Shown: piece after piece, positions 17,049-54,825 of the stretch | Layout: the number at the start of each line of letters is the position of its first letter | Numbering within the stretch: position 1 is the first letter of the stretch | Origin: Spirochaetaceae bacterium | GTDB lineage: Bacteria; Spirochaetota; Spirochaetia; Treponematales; Breznakiellaceae | Assembly (NCBI GenBank): GCA_031281945.1 | Contig: JAITER010000074.1 | Location: forward strand, 1 to 54,924 | DNA length: 54,924 nucleotides | Direction: 5' to 3' | Translations under genes and position numbers: made by a program | Notes under the pieces: model-generated | What the model saw: only the letters and a program-made list of their open reading frames with translations | Databases searched by the model: none | Told to the model about the DNA's origin: nothing

Positions 17049-19907
17049 ATGTCTTCTCCGCTTTTTCTTTTGGATTCTTACGCGCTTATTTACCGCGCTT
17101 ATTTTGCTTTTATTTCAAAGCCTTTACGAAACCGCGCCGGCGAGAATGTTTCCGCCCTTTTTGGTTTTAGCCGTATTGTAAATAGCTTGATTTCGGACGG
17201 ACGCCCAAAAATAGTAGCGGCTGTTATGGATTCCAGAGGGCCGACTTTTCGCCACAAAGAATACCCTGAATATAAAGCTACACGACAAAAAACGCCGGAA
17301 GACCTGCGTAGCCAGGTTCCGCTTGTTGAGACTTTTCTTAAAAGCCTGGGCGCGCCGGTTTTGCAATCCGAGGGTTGCGAGGCGGATGATGTTATTGCGG
17401 CTTTGGCGTTAAGATGCCGCGCGGAAAACCGCGAGTGCTACATAGTTTCCGGCGACAAAGACCTTTTGCAGTTGGTTGGGAACGGGGTTTATGAACTTCG
17501 TCCGCTAAAAAGGCCTTCCGCTGTTTCTGGTGGCGAGGTTCCGGCGCAAAACGGGGCTTCTGAACGGGAGTGGCTTTCTTTAAAAAAATCCCCGTTGGCG
17601 GGTTTTGAGGTGATTGACGAAGAAGACGTTATAAAAGAATGGGGCGTCCCCCCGTCTAAAATACTGGATTTTTTGGCTCTTACGGGGGACAGCTCGGACA
17701 ATGTGCCTGGCGTTAAAGGTATAGGCGAAAAAACCGCGCTTAAACTGATAACCCGCTTTGGAAGCCTAGAAAATATTTATTCAAATATAGCCGGAATTGA
17801 AGGCGCCGCCGGAAAAAAGCTTTGCGCGGGAGAAAAAGACGCTTTTCTTTCTAAAAAACTAATTTCTCTTAAAACGGATATTGTTTTTGATTTTGACGGA
17901 ATAGATTCGTTAAAACCGCCTGAATACAATTACGCAAAGGCTGTGGAATTTTTGCTTGGGCAAGAAATACGGTCTGTAGCGCGGGATATAGCCCGCCTTG
18001 ACGCAAGCTTAAAGACGCCGGAAGCCGGTAAAAATGAAGAACCGCCGAATGAAAACGGTCTTGACGCGGAAAGCGAAGAACCGGCTACGGATATTCCAAA
18101 AACGGACGCCGTGTATCGTTGTATTACAGAACTTGGCGAGCTAGACGATTTTTGTAAAAGAGCGAAAAAACAAGGCTTTTTCGCTCTTGATTTTGAAACC
18201 GACTCACTTGATACTAGCGCCGCGCAAGTTGTGGGATTTTCTCTTGCGCTTAAATCGAAAGAAGGTTTTTATGTGCCGGTTATGGCGCACGGCCCGGACG
18301 CCGATTCGGCGTTTTTGCCGTCTGAAGAGGCCAGATCCCGTATAGCCGGCCTTCTTTCGGATCCAAACATTACGGTTATAGCCCATAACGCAAAATTTGA
18401 CTACAAAATAAGCCGCACCTGGGGGTTGCCGCACTGGAAAGCCAAAATTTTTGATACGATGATAGCGGCCTGGATTATTGACCCTGATTTCGCTTCTTAT
18501 TCTTTAGAAAAAGTAAGTTATTTTTATTTAGATTATAAAGACGCTATTCATTACAAAGACATTGTTCCAAAAGGAATGCCTTTTAATGTTGTTCCGCTTG
18601 AATTGGCTTGCCGTTATTCCGCGGAAGATGCGGATGTGTGCGTAAGGTTGCGGGAATTTTTTTTGAACGGCGATTATTTTTCCGTTGACGCCGCAAAGGT
18701 GTTTTTTGACCTGGAGATGCCGCTTTTGCCTATTTTGGCTGAAATGGAAATCGCCGGTATAAAAATCAATAAAGAAGAGCTAAAAAAATACGGCGAAGAT
18801 TTAACTAAAGAGCTTTCTTCCATTCAATTTGAAGCCTGGGAGATGGTTGGCCGCGAGTTTAATTTGGCGTCTCCAAAACAGCTTCAGGATATACTGTTTG
18901 TTGAACGCGGCCTTAGACCCACTAAAAAGACGCCAACCGGCTTGTCTACGGATATGTCCGTGTTGGAAGAGCTTGCCTCCGAGGATGAACTTTGCGCTAA
19001 AATTTTAAGTTACAGGACGGCGTCAAAATTGAAATCCACCTATGTGGATTCTCTTTGCAATCTGGCTGATGAAAACGGGCGGCTTCACACCACTTTTTTT
19101 CAGACTGGAACCGCCACTGGCCGGCTTTCCAGCCGGGATCCAAACTTGCAAAACATACCGGTTCGTGAAACCGAGGGGCGGCGTATTCGTGAAGCGTTTA
19201 TAGCGGAAGAAGGCAAACTTCTTATTTCCGCGGATTACAACCAAATTGAATTGGTGGTGCTGGCTCATCTTTCCGGCGATAAAAATTTGTGCGAGGCGTT
19301 TAACAACGGCGAAGACGTTCACAGTCAAACTGCGGCGCTTATTTTTGGCGTTCCTGTGGAGGATGTAACCGGCTCTCAGAGGCGGGCGGCTAAAACAATA
19401 AACTTTGGAGTGATGTACGGAATGAGTTCCTACCGGCTTTCTAAAAATCTAAAAATAAGCGCTGAAGAAGCGTCCAGATTTATAAAAGCCTATTTTAAAA
19501 CCTACAGCGGCGTCAAAGAATTTATTGAAAATGTTATAGCCGACGCCGAAAAAAATGGTTTTGTAACAACGATGTTCGGGAGGCGGCGGGCGATTAAACT
19601 TATTAATTCCAAAAACAAAGTGGAAAAAGCCGGCGCGAATCGCATGGCCGTGAACACGCCCATACAGGGCGGCGCCGCCGATATTGTAAAGCGGGCGATG
19701 TTAACGCTTGACGCCGAACTACAGGCCAGAAATTTGGGCGCGAAAATCTTGCTTCAGGTTCATGACGAACTTATTTTGGAAGCGCCGGAAGAAATCGTTG
19801 AAGAAACAGCCGCCGTTGTGCGCAGTGTAATGGAAAATGCGGTAAAACTTTCGCCGCCTTTACGTGTAAGTCTTGAAATTGGAAAAAACTGGGGCGAATT
19901 TCACTAA
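17049..19907 (+). CDS. polA: DNA polymerase I
   Basis: A 952-residue enzyme. I prefer the ATG at 17049 to the TTG at 17031 because the family begins close to LFLLDSYALIYRAYFAF. The 5'-3' exonuclease spans about residues 1-300 (LLDSYALIYRAYF, GDKDLLQL, TGDSSDNVPGVKGIG). The 3'-5' exonuclease is intact: D381 and E383 in LDFETDS, D451 in NAKFD, Y523 and D527 in YSAED. The polymerase domain has DYNQIEL (D729), RRAAKTINFGVMYG and the VHDE motif (D906, E907). So repair synthesis, nick translation and proofreading should all be active. No ribosome site is seen; TATAGT lies 7 nt before the ATG. Confidence 0.97.
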   Translation: MSSPLFLLDSYALIYRAYFAFISKPLRNRAGENVSALFGFSRIVNSLISDGRPKIVAAVMDSRGPTFRHKEYPEYKATRQKTPEDLRSQVPLVETFLKSLGAPVLQSEGCEADDVIAALALRCRAENRECYIVSGDKDLLQLVGNGVYELRPLKRPSAVSGGEVPAQNGASEREWLSLKKSPLAGFEVIDEEDVIKEWGVPPSKILDFLALTGDSSDNVPGVKGIGEKTALKLITRFGSLENIYSNIAGIEGAAGKKLCAGEKDAFLSKKLISLKTDIVFDFDGIDSLKPPEYNYAKAVEFLLGQEIRSVARDIARLDASLKTPEAGKNEEPPNENGLDAESEEPATDIPKTDAVYRCITELGELDDFCKRAKKQGFFALDFETDSLDTSAAQVVGFSLALKSKEGFYVPVMAHGPDADSAFLPSEEARSRIAGLLSDPNITVIAHNAKFDYKISRTWGLPHWKAKIFDTMIAAWIIDPDFASYSLEKVSYFYLDYKDAIHYKDIVPKGMPFNVVPLELACRYSAEDADVCVRLREFFLNGDYFSVDAAKVFFDLEMPLLPILAEMEIAGIKINKEELKKYGEDLTKELSSIQFEAWEMVGREFNLASPKQLQDILFVERGLRPTKKTPTGLSTDMSVLEELASEDELCAKILSYRTASKLKSTYVDSLCNLADENGRLHTTFFQTGTATGRLSSRDPNLQNIPVRETEGRRIREAFIAEEGKLLISADYNQIELVVLAHLSGDKNLCEAFNNGEDVHSQTAALIFGVPVEDVTGSQRRAAKTINFGVMYGMSSYRLSKNLKISAEEASRFIKAYFKTYSGVKEFIENVIADAEKNGFVTTMFGRRRAIKLINSKNKVEKAGANRMAVNTPIQGGAADIVKRAMLTLDAELQARNLGAKILLQVHDELILEAPEEIVEETAAVVRSVMENAVKLSPPLRVSLEIGKNWGEFH

Positions 19908-19958
19908 AATCAATATCTTGAAAGGCGCAATCAGTTTTGTTAAACTCTGCCTGTAATT

Positions 19959-20045
19959 GGAGCGGTGTCCGAGCGGTTGAAGGAGACGGCCTTGAAAGTC
20001 GTAGAGCTCGCAAGGGTTCCGAGGGTTCGAATCCCTCCTGCTCCG
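19959..20045 (+). tRNA. tRNA-Ser (anticodon UGA)
   Basis: Acceptor GGAGCGG (19959-19965) pairs with CTGCTCC (20038-20044), with G as discriminator at 20045 and no encoded CCA. Anticodon stem ACGGC/GTCGT holds loop CTTGAAA, giving anticodon TGA at 19993-19995, which reads UCA and other UCN codons. A long class-II variable arm (AGAGCTCGCAAGGGTTCC) and the T arm GAGGGTTCGAATCCCTC confirm serine. Confidence 0.96.
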
Positions 20046-20093
20046 AAATAAAGGGAGGGATTCGAAGGGTTACACCCGCCCGCGCAAAGCGGG
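20028..20093 (+). repeat. Direct repeat, left copy (contains tRNA-Ser 3' end)
   Basis: About 65 bp starting with the T-arm and acceptor of tRNA-Ser (CGAATCCCTCCTGCTCCG) and continuing into AAATAAAGGGAGGG, an inverted copy of the T stem, then a stretch rich in CCCGCCCGCG. It recurs almost unchanged at 20169-20233. GAATCCCTCC and GGGAGGGATTC can pair, competing with the tRNA T stem. Confidence 0.8.
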
Positions 20094-20168
20094 AAAAGCC
20101 GCCATGGATGGCGGCGGCAGGGTGGAACCCCGGCCTGTAAGGAGCGGCAGGAAGCCGCGACTGGAAGG

Positions 20169-20233
20169 CGAATCCCTCCTGCTCCGAAATAAAGGGAGGG
20201 ATTCGAAGGATTGCACCCGCCCGCGCAAAGCGG
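20169..20233 (+). repeat. Direct repeat, right copy (tRNA-Ser 3' end fragment)
   Basis: Second copy, 141 bp from the first, containing the 3' 17 nt of tRNA-Ser without the rest of the tRNA. The 75 bp between the copies encode nothing evident and include CCGCCATGGATGGCGG. The arrangement resembles attL/attR of a lost element or a local tandem duplication. The right copy is followed by GGCCGCCATTCATGGCGGC, another palindrome, and then by the LUD gene ribosome site. Confidence 0.8.
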
Positions 20234-20286
20234 CCGCCATTCATGGCGGCTATTCCTATTTCAAGAATAGATAAGCAGGAGGCGTC

Positions 20287-20934
20287 ATGTCTGAACAATA
20301 CAAGCATATAAGAGCTTCAAAGTTGGGGCCGGTTGTGGTGGAAGCGCTTAAATCGCGTCATTTTGATGCTTATTATTTTGATGAAATCCATGAAGCGCTG
20401 GAAAAAATTTGGCAACTTACACCAAAAACGGATGTTGTCGCCTGGGGCGGTTCGCTTACTTTTGACGATGTGGGCGGGCTTACTAAAATGGCCGCGCAAA
20501 AAGGATATATGGTTATAGACAGAGACGCGGCCAAAGACGCCGAAGAAAGAAACCGGCTTCAATACGAAGCTCTTGGTTGCGGCACATTTTTAACCGGCGC
20601 AAACGCTATAAGCGAAGACGGCCAAATAGTAAATATAGACGGAATGGGCAACCGTGTAGCCGCTATGATTTACGGCCCGCGCCAGGTTATCGTAATTGCG
20701 GGCGTAAACAAAATTGTAAAAACTGTAGAGGACGCGACGGCCCGCGCCCGCAATTTGGCCGCTCCTCTTAACGCCCAGCGTTTTAAAAATATAAAAACGC
20801 CGTGCGCTTTAACAGGGGCCTGCGCTGACTGTAAATCTTTAGATTCAATCTGCACTTACATTGTAACAACTCGTCTTAGCCGCCCGGCTGGAAGAATTAA
20901 AGTTATTCTAATAGGAAAAACTTTAGGTTTTTAA
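20287..20934 (+). CDS. LUD-domain protein (lactate-utilisation LutC/YkgG-like)
   Basis: A 215-residue protein of the LUD (DUF162) fold. It shows VAWGGSLTFDDVGG, LTGANAISEDGQIVNIDGMGNRVAAMIYGP and VIVIAGVNKIV, all typical of the stand-alone LUD family related to LutC. The C terminus adds four cysteines (CALTGACADCKSLDSIC), as in family members with a small metal or Fe-S site. The role of stand-alone LUD proteins is uncertain; lactate oxidation by a LutABC complex needs partners that are absent here. AGGAGG precedes the ATG. Confidence 0.85.
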   Translation: MSEQYKHIRASKLGPVVVEALKSRHFDAYYFDEIHEALEKIWQLTPKTDVVAWGGSLTFDDVGGLTKMAAQKGYMVIDRDAAKDAEERNRLQYEALGCGTFLTGANAISEDGQIVNIDGMGNRVAAMIYGPRQVIVIAGVNKIVKTVEDATARARNLAAPLNAQRFKNIKTPCALTGACADCKSLDSICTYIVTTRLSRPAGRIKVILIGKTLGF

Positions 20935-54658: not shown

Positions 54659-54761
54659 CGCATTTTTCGCCGCTTCGCGGCGAAAAACCGTGCTATCCGC
54701 TAAAATTTCGCGGGAAGGGCGAAGCCCTTCCCGCGAAATTCCCGCTCCTATCACTTGCGCT
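54655..54761 (-). repeat. Family-2 compensating-hairpin element, copy 3
   Basis: Read on the minus strand: GATAGGAGCGGGAATT, then hairpin 1 with AATTTCGCGGGAAGGGC (54740-54724) and its perfect complement, then TTTAGCGGATAGCACGG, then hairpin 2 TTTTTCGCCGC with GCGGCGAAAAA (54687-54663), then TGCGCCCTT. Flanks match copies 1 and 2, while both stems are different sequences and remain fully paired. Confidence 0.8.
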
Positions 54762-54825
54762 TCAAAACGAAAAAAGCTCCATGTTTTCCATGCCTAAATC
54801 CGTGCGATTCGGCTTCCGGCAAACC

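Follow-up and report, generated by a model that had tools for sequence, protein, structure and literature searches.

Short palindromic elements with host-matched ends behind tRNA and tmRNA genes of spirochaetes: probable insertions at the T-arm

Here we describe a family of short, non-coding DNA elements in spirochaetes, each with a conserved hairpin core and with ends that copy the tRNA gene it follows. In broad kind this is a dispersed bacterial palindromic element; its members are probably mobile but non-autonomous, entering tRNA and tmRNA genes at the T-arm while keeping the host RNA gene whole. Anatomy, end fit, dispersal, empty sites, arrays, and truncated copies can all be observed directly in the genomes compared. 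Our point of departure is the window—a stretch of 54,924 nucleotides from a Spirochaetaceae bacterium, positions 1 to 54,924 of contig JAITER010000074.1—and all coordinates given without a locus name refer to it.

The window carries a tRNA-Ser(UGA) gene without encoded CCA at 19959-20045 on the forward strand (Rfam RF00005; ARAGORN gives 19958-20046). Open reading frames and Pfam matches identify its neighbours as a DNA polymerase I gene, which ends at 19907, and a LUD-domain gene, which starts at 20287. A first-pass annotation had noticed that the 3' end of this tRNA gene recurs downstream together with the sequence that follows it. This direct repeat is real, and its place and size are exact—20028-20092 and 20169-20233, 65 nt at 97% identity with a start-to-start spacing of 141—so that a chance origin is ruled out. 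The repeat begins exactly at C56 of the T-loop and therefore includes the final 18 nt of the tRNA, rather than the 17 first reported. Each repeat also contains an inverted T-arm copy, as the annotation had said; both (20054-20066 and 20195-20207) are perfect 13-nt reverse complements of 20026-20038, a segment that starts at T54. The full-length repeat occurs in the window's own genome at these two sites only, the other matches listed being 15 nt or shorter. What had been overlooked is the 102 nt between the inverted copy and the second direct copy: this is a conserved structured core, and the core is the real element.

When loci of many tRNA isotypes are set side by side they share one plan, which runs from the tRNA 3' end through a spacer (S), an inverted copy of the T-loop and 3' T-stem of the host tRNA (iT), and a conserved hairpin region of about 105 nt (the core) to a direct copy of the host tRNA 3' end that begins at C56 (T'). 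The plan was recognised from a search of the tRNA and its downstream sequence in 97 relatives, in which some matches cover the downstream part only; among the 20 regions fetched from that search most match the downstream part only and two match both parts, and tRNA genes, of many isotypes, are present in all 20. In the window, where every feature lies on the forward strand, the source of T' is 20028-20045 (C56 to N73) and that of iT is 20026-20038, both within the tRNA gene. Unit 1 then consists of the spacer AAATAAAG (20046-20053), iT (20054-20066), the hairpin core (20067-20168, with outer helix arms at 20067-20077 and 20120-20130 according to the covariance model R1 and the predicted fold), and T' (20169-20186). 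Unit 2 has the identical 8-nt spacer (20187-20194), an iT located by inverted-repeat comparison (20195-20207), and a truncated core (20208-20250) that retains the 5' part and one hairpin and has no T'; unit 1 matches 20195-20250 at 84%. R1 matches 20054-20181 with an E value of 4.1e-24, this copy being among the 24 used to build the model. The window's repeat thus comprises two copies of a dispersed element, the first complete and the second truncated.

Tandem and shortened copies are also seen elsewhere. The largest tandem array has four units behind a tRNA-Gln(CUG) gene (L386, 2155-2909, reverse strand), with a period of about 205 nt; in the genus to which G376 belongs, shortened elements (L374 and L372) behind tRNA-Met-like genes have lost part of the core and retain their host-matched ends. 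A reverse-strand open reading frame of 178 amino acids (19771-20307) spans the tRNA-Ser(UGA) gene and both copies in the window and is almost certainly spurious; frames that overlap elements likewise form the largest cluster of reading frames around elements in other genomes. Against the 4227 Rfam families at gathering scores, the window gave only the tRNA and a distant, marginal match to Flavo-1 RNA, the element itself being unmatched; the Flavo-1 match lies at 54682-54765 on the reverse strand, scores 42.6 bits against a cut-off of 42, and stands in a spirochaete genome. When 14 related loci were compared with Rfam at E values up to 1, tRNAs and one SRP RNA exceeded the cut-offs, and all else fell below them.

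The annotation had offered a local duplication as one explanation of the repeat, which is not borne out: the core recurs elsewhere with different ends. It had also named another dispersed repeat family, present away from tRNA-Ser, as the outcome that would count against its reading, and this is what was found, with the core behind 28 anticodon types and tmRNA. The dispersal comes with a twist—the family is bound to genes that bear a T-arm, and its ends are fitted to each of them.

A strict core-pattern scan of 84,980 species returned 86 stretches, all 86 of them spirochaetal by record title or by a genus in Spirochaetota; the pattern derives from copies in spirochaetes, and diverged relatives elsewhere would escape it. 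So far, then, the family is known only from spirochaetes. R1 matches occur in at least 133 of 195 genomes from the family to which the window belongs and in at least 80 of 392 genomes drawn across the phylum, both counts being lower bounds because only part of the candidates in each genome was scored; in five genomes scored more fully there were 7 to 21 matches each. Counts throughout come from R1, a cruder first finder (47 of 158 tRNA genes) having contained false calls. The cultured isolates Breznakiella homolactica and Brucepastera parasyntrophica are among the pattern matches, so assembly error is not the explanation. Phage and plasmid collections gave no match with one element as the query, and in viral contigs the strict pattern found nothing while a looser one found five stretches, none of which R1 matches; a phage, plasmid, or viral origin was dropped, since the collections searched gave no element.

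To describe location we used 126 R1 matches, chosen by core only, in 80 of the 86 stretches (the last six were left out). Most of them, 88 of 126, follow the 3' end of a same-strand tRNA gene at a distance of no more than 120 nt; a further 21 lie within 150 nt of another copy, three at contig ends, and one after a masked stretch. The other 13 were read singly: four follow a tmRNA gene detected by ARAGORN (L149, L151, L155, and L162), five follow a tRNA 3' fragment recognised by eye, and four have no tRNA-like neighbour. The copies behind tmRNA suggest that the target is the T-arm as such, not tRNA genes only, and the five tRNA 3' fragments may be the edges of islands inserted in tRNA genes. 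In none of the 126 matches does the end of an opposite-strand tRNA gene face the element within 120 nt. One copy, L182 3449-3577, is nearly identical to the unit at L182 1923-2051, about 1.4 kb away, and adjoins no tRNA.

The fit of the ends was measured on 153 distinct elements directly behind 28 anticodon types, which were drawn from the 126 matches of the location sample and 74 of 138 in a second set, with the rest excluded by hand (overlapping loci, array copies, or partial copies). At either end the match to the host tRNA is far closer than the match to other tRNAs. T' is identical to its own tRNA at all 15 positions in 113 of the 153 elements, and its summed fit to its own tRNA is 2127, while the best of 200 permutations reached 1449; the corresponding values for iT are 1563 and 1255, again with 200 permutations. 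On average iT agrees with its own T-arm at 10.2 of 11 positions and with foreign T-arms at 7.5. Its length is 11-13 nt in 85 of the 153 elements, roughly the T-loop plus the 3' T-stem, within an overall range of 9 to 21 nt; it stops exactly at T54 in 93 elements and two bases further in 44. Where T and T' differ, iT sides with the tRNA in 24 of 24 elements, a count to be read knowing that six of these differ only at the junction base C56, that some other T' copies are decayed, and that iT was itself found through its resemblance to the tRNA.

The core is also conserved in its pairing. In an alignment of 24 hand-chosen elements the consensus fold has 36 pairs, 28 of which show double-sided changes; 94.5% of 856 cells are paired, a level reached in none of 500 shuffles and falling to at most 48% when the partner strand is slid. 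Among the 126 R1 matches 94.9% of 4187 cells are paired (93.8% in helix 1), with 906 double-sided changes against 252 in shuffles, although this alignment was made to R1 and so leans toward the model. By eye, the 24-element alignment also contains conserved unpaired purine-rich motifs, and no conserved tetranucleotide of the GTAG type was noticed adjoining a hairpin.

Covariation this strong invites a second explanation, namely that the element works in cis as a structured part of the tRNA trailer RNA, such as a switch for processing or regulation in which iT would pair either with the T-arm of the tRNA, blocking it, or with T', freeing it. The annotation had proposed that the mirrored T stem could pair with the tRNA, and the predicted fold of the window RNA agrees, pairing iT with the tRNA T-arm (z -6.6); it also suits this explanation that the element lies on the tRNA strand wherever a tRNA is within 120 nt. 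We nevertheless consider it unlikely, for the element is present only patchily at the same genes, one core is common to 28 anticodon types and tmRNA, and two further observations bear on transcription and pairing. Of the 98 spacers that measure 25 nt or more, 29 contain a terminator-like hairpin ahead of the element (0-4 in 20 shuffles), and copies behind such hairpins should be poorly transcribed from the tRNA promoter. Wobble pairs are rare: in the inner helices their share is 1.7% (bootstrap 1.2-2.2), whereas in 323 tRNAs from the loci examined, the sole baseline, it is 9.2% (8.6-9.7); counted per change, the contrast is weaker and only two-fold (0.074 against 0.15). This rarity fits pairing enforced in DNA better than pairing enforced in RNA, but it could instead reflect conserved GC-rich stems.

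Mobility at the T-arm, the reading we favour, is addressed by empty and filled sites. Between tRNA-Lys and tig the site is filled in G196, whereas an element 3' of tRNA-Lys is absent from all 11 loci, in 10 genomes, that have tRNA-Lys before tig; 20 regions were fetched for this comparison, and absence was confirmed with R1. The single R1 match in those 11 loci (L338) is upstream of tRNA-Lys and on the other strand. The tRNA-Asp site is filled in three loci and empty in a fourth, and a terminator-like hairpin comes after T' in two of the filled ones; at the proS locus tRNA-Asp is present in only three of 20 fetched regions. At the recA locus there is no tRNA upstream in the relatives shown, so this locus was dropped as having no bearing on empty sites. 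Two congeners with incomplete genomes, G001 and G002, each carry a tRNA-Ser(UGA) gene that lacks the element, though in a different gene order, and G002 has elements at tRNA-Trp and tRNA-Ser(GGA).

Relations among cores and spacers speak partly for movement and partly against it. The cores of one Gln and one Tyr element are 92.3% identical, a sign of movement between tRNA genes; with 10 of the 153 elements left out for core length, the nearest neighbour of a core belongs to the same isotype in 82 of 143 cases against about 26 by chance, which indicates that jumps between isotypes are not frequent. A direct repeat that spans essentially the whole spacer is plain in only 13 of 85 single elements, including the terminator-like hairpins behind tRNA-Met. 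These duplications comprise 18 nt plus 11 to 66 nt, with one end fixed at C56 and the other variable, and two of the 13 then show the apparent start of a lost second unit.

A third explanation, close to the attachment-site scar proposed in the first-pass annotation, holds that the repeats are remnants of islands whose integrases recombine at the T-loop or 3' end of tRNA genes. Direct repeats of the tRNA 3' end are what such scars would leave, and the tRNA 3' fragments before five elements can be read as island edges. In addition, four of the 153 elements have a palindrome in the 160 nt that follow them, and in three an open reading frame comes next; two of the three frames were tested and had no Pfam match, and their candidacy as integrases was dropped. 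These are the tRNA-Tyr elements L141, L168, and L189, where the palindrome AATTCCTT...AAGGAATTA and then the frame come directly after T'; an integrated island exploiting the spare tRNA 3' end may have its edge here. Palindromes were rejected as the cause of the element itself because they are too rare, at 4 of 153 against 2 of 226 element-free tRNAs. We regard the scar explanation as very improbable: an attachment site should suit one integrase, whereas the core is conserved and structured over 28 tRNA types, and the empty tRNA-Lys/tig sites have no core. Of the annotation's proposal, insertion at the tRNA 3' end stands, and a bare scar does not, given a core shared by 28 anticodon types and tmRNA.

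If the elements are mobile, as we think probable, the enzyme that moves them might be sought in or beside them. An autonomous version there was considered and rejected: 37 of 303 nhmmer matches are partial, and the eleven inspected are hairpin insertions, truncations, or contig ends. Among the reading frames within 3 kb of elements in 80 pattern-fetched loci there was no recurring transposase; of 69 clusters present in at least three loci only three adjoin at least three isotypes, and none of these is transposase-like, two overlapping the element and one being a histidine kinase. Among 20 genomes that carry the element 11 have an HUH Y1 transposase, as do 8 of 20 that lack it, a comparison in which the search model may have missed a partner; for reverse transcriptases (RVT_1) the counts are 7 of 20 and 6 of 20. 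Both were rejected as the mobiliser, since their presence does not track the element. That these comparisons yielded no mobilising protein weighs against our reading.

The lack of a candidate enzyme in the reading-frame, Y1, and reverse-transcriptase comparisons is itself an argument for a further explanation, in which no dedicated enzyme acts: the core would spread by template switching during replication at shared T-arm sequence, and palindrome correction would fit the ends. The near-exclusive Watson-Crick pairing, the variable length of the inverted copy (9 to 21 nt), and the agreement of iT with the neighbouring tRNA in all 24 cases that discriminate all accord with such a process. Against it, the purine-rich motifs seen by eye and the constant core boundary suggest that something recognises the element, and the restriction of the strict pattern to spirochaetes suggests a lineage-specific factor; on balance we find this account doubtful.

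Several known systems resemble the element in part. REP/BIME sequences with their RAYT transposases are short, non-coding, hairpin-forming, and dispersed, and are probably moved in trans as single-stranded DNA; the spirochaete element resembles them in all of this, but unlike them it is nearly always found behind genes with a T-arm, each copy having ends that match its host, and its presence is not tracked by Y1 transposases (the 11 of 20 and 8 of 20 above). Miniature inverted-repeat transposable elements (MITEs) are small and non-autonomous, with inverted ends and repeats of the target-duplication type, traits in which the spirochaete element resembles them, iT and T' being its terminal inverted repeats. 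In the element, however, the inverted end consists of sequence from the host tRNA itself, the duplication is fixed at one end and variable at the other instead of having a set length, and no parent transposon was found near the elements. Rickettsia palindromic elements are also palindromic, about 100-150 nt long, and spread in one bacterial lineage; they lie inside protein genes, however, whereas the spirochaete elements lie behind tRNA and tmRNA genes.

Other systems use tRNA genes as targets. Islands and satellites with tyrosine integrases integrate at the 3' part of a tRNA gene, so that the tRNA is restored and the 3' copy displaced; the element shares both outcomes but is about 130 nt long, with no integrase inside and no specificity for a single tRNA. 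Dictyostelium TRE retrotransposons and casposons also have tRNA genes as landing pads, with long or variable target duplications, in which they resemble the element; the element differs in having no coding capacity, and reverse transcriptases (7 of 20 against 6 of 20) do not track its presence. T-arm targeting combined with host-matched ends fits none of the families compared, which we set apart by their general definitions. A literature search, in which subscription journals were thinly covered, returned no earlier description of the element, and passages from PMC8040213 likewise gave none.

How insertion proceeds can be sketched from these features. The element may act as folded single-stranded DNA, or its palindromes may be kept perfect at the DNA level; action on DNA is suggested by the rarity of wobble pairs and by the copies that stand behind a terminator-like hairpin. 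A trans-acting enzyme or repair synthesis would cut at T55/C56, copy the core in, and duplicate the target. iT would arise when template switching copies the T-arm of the target, whether during insertion or afterwards through palindrome correction, and a copy made from the T-arm would agree with the tRNA even where T' has drifted. As a possible though tentative account we envisage a self-tailoring DNA hairpin, in which an enzyme acting in trans recognises the core in its folded state, cuts any T-arm at T55/C56, and copies the T-arm both ways in the course of insertion; each new copy would in this way gain ends matched to its new host gene and restore the tRNA or tmRNA.

If this reading is right, a bacterial phylum harbours a mobile element that can land without harm in many tRNA genes and in tmRNA, with ends matched to each. 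It would represent an unusual solution to the problem of inserting into essential genes, would point to an undiscovered DNA process directed at the T-arm, and would explain the spurious reverse-strand reading frames found beside tRNA genes. The natural pairs of empty and filled sites, together with the cultured hosts Breznakiella homolactica and Brucepastera parasyntrophica, offer material on which the mechanism can be tested.
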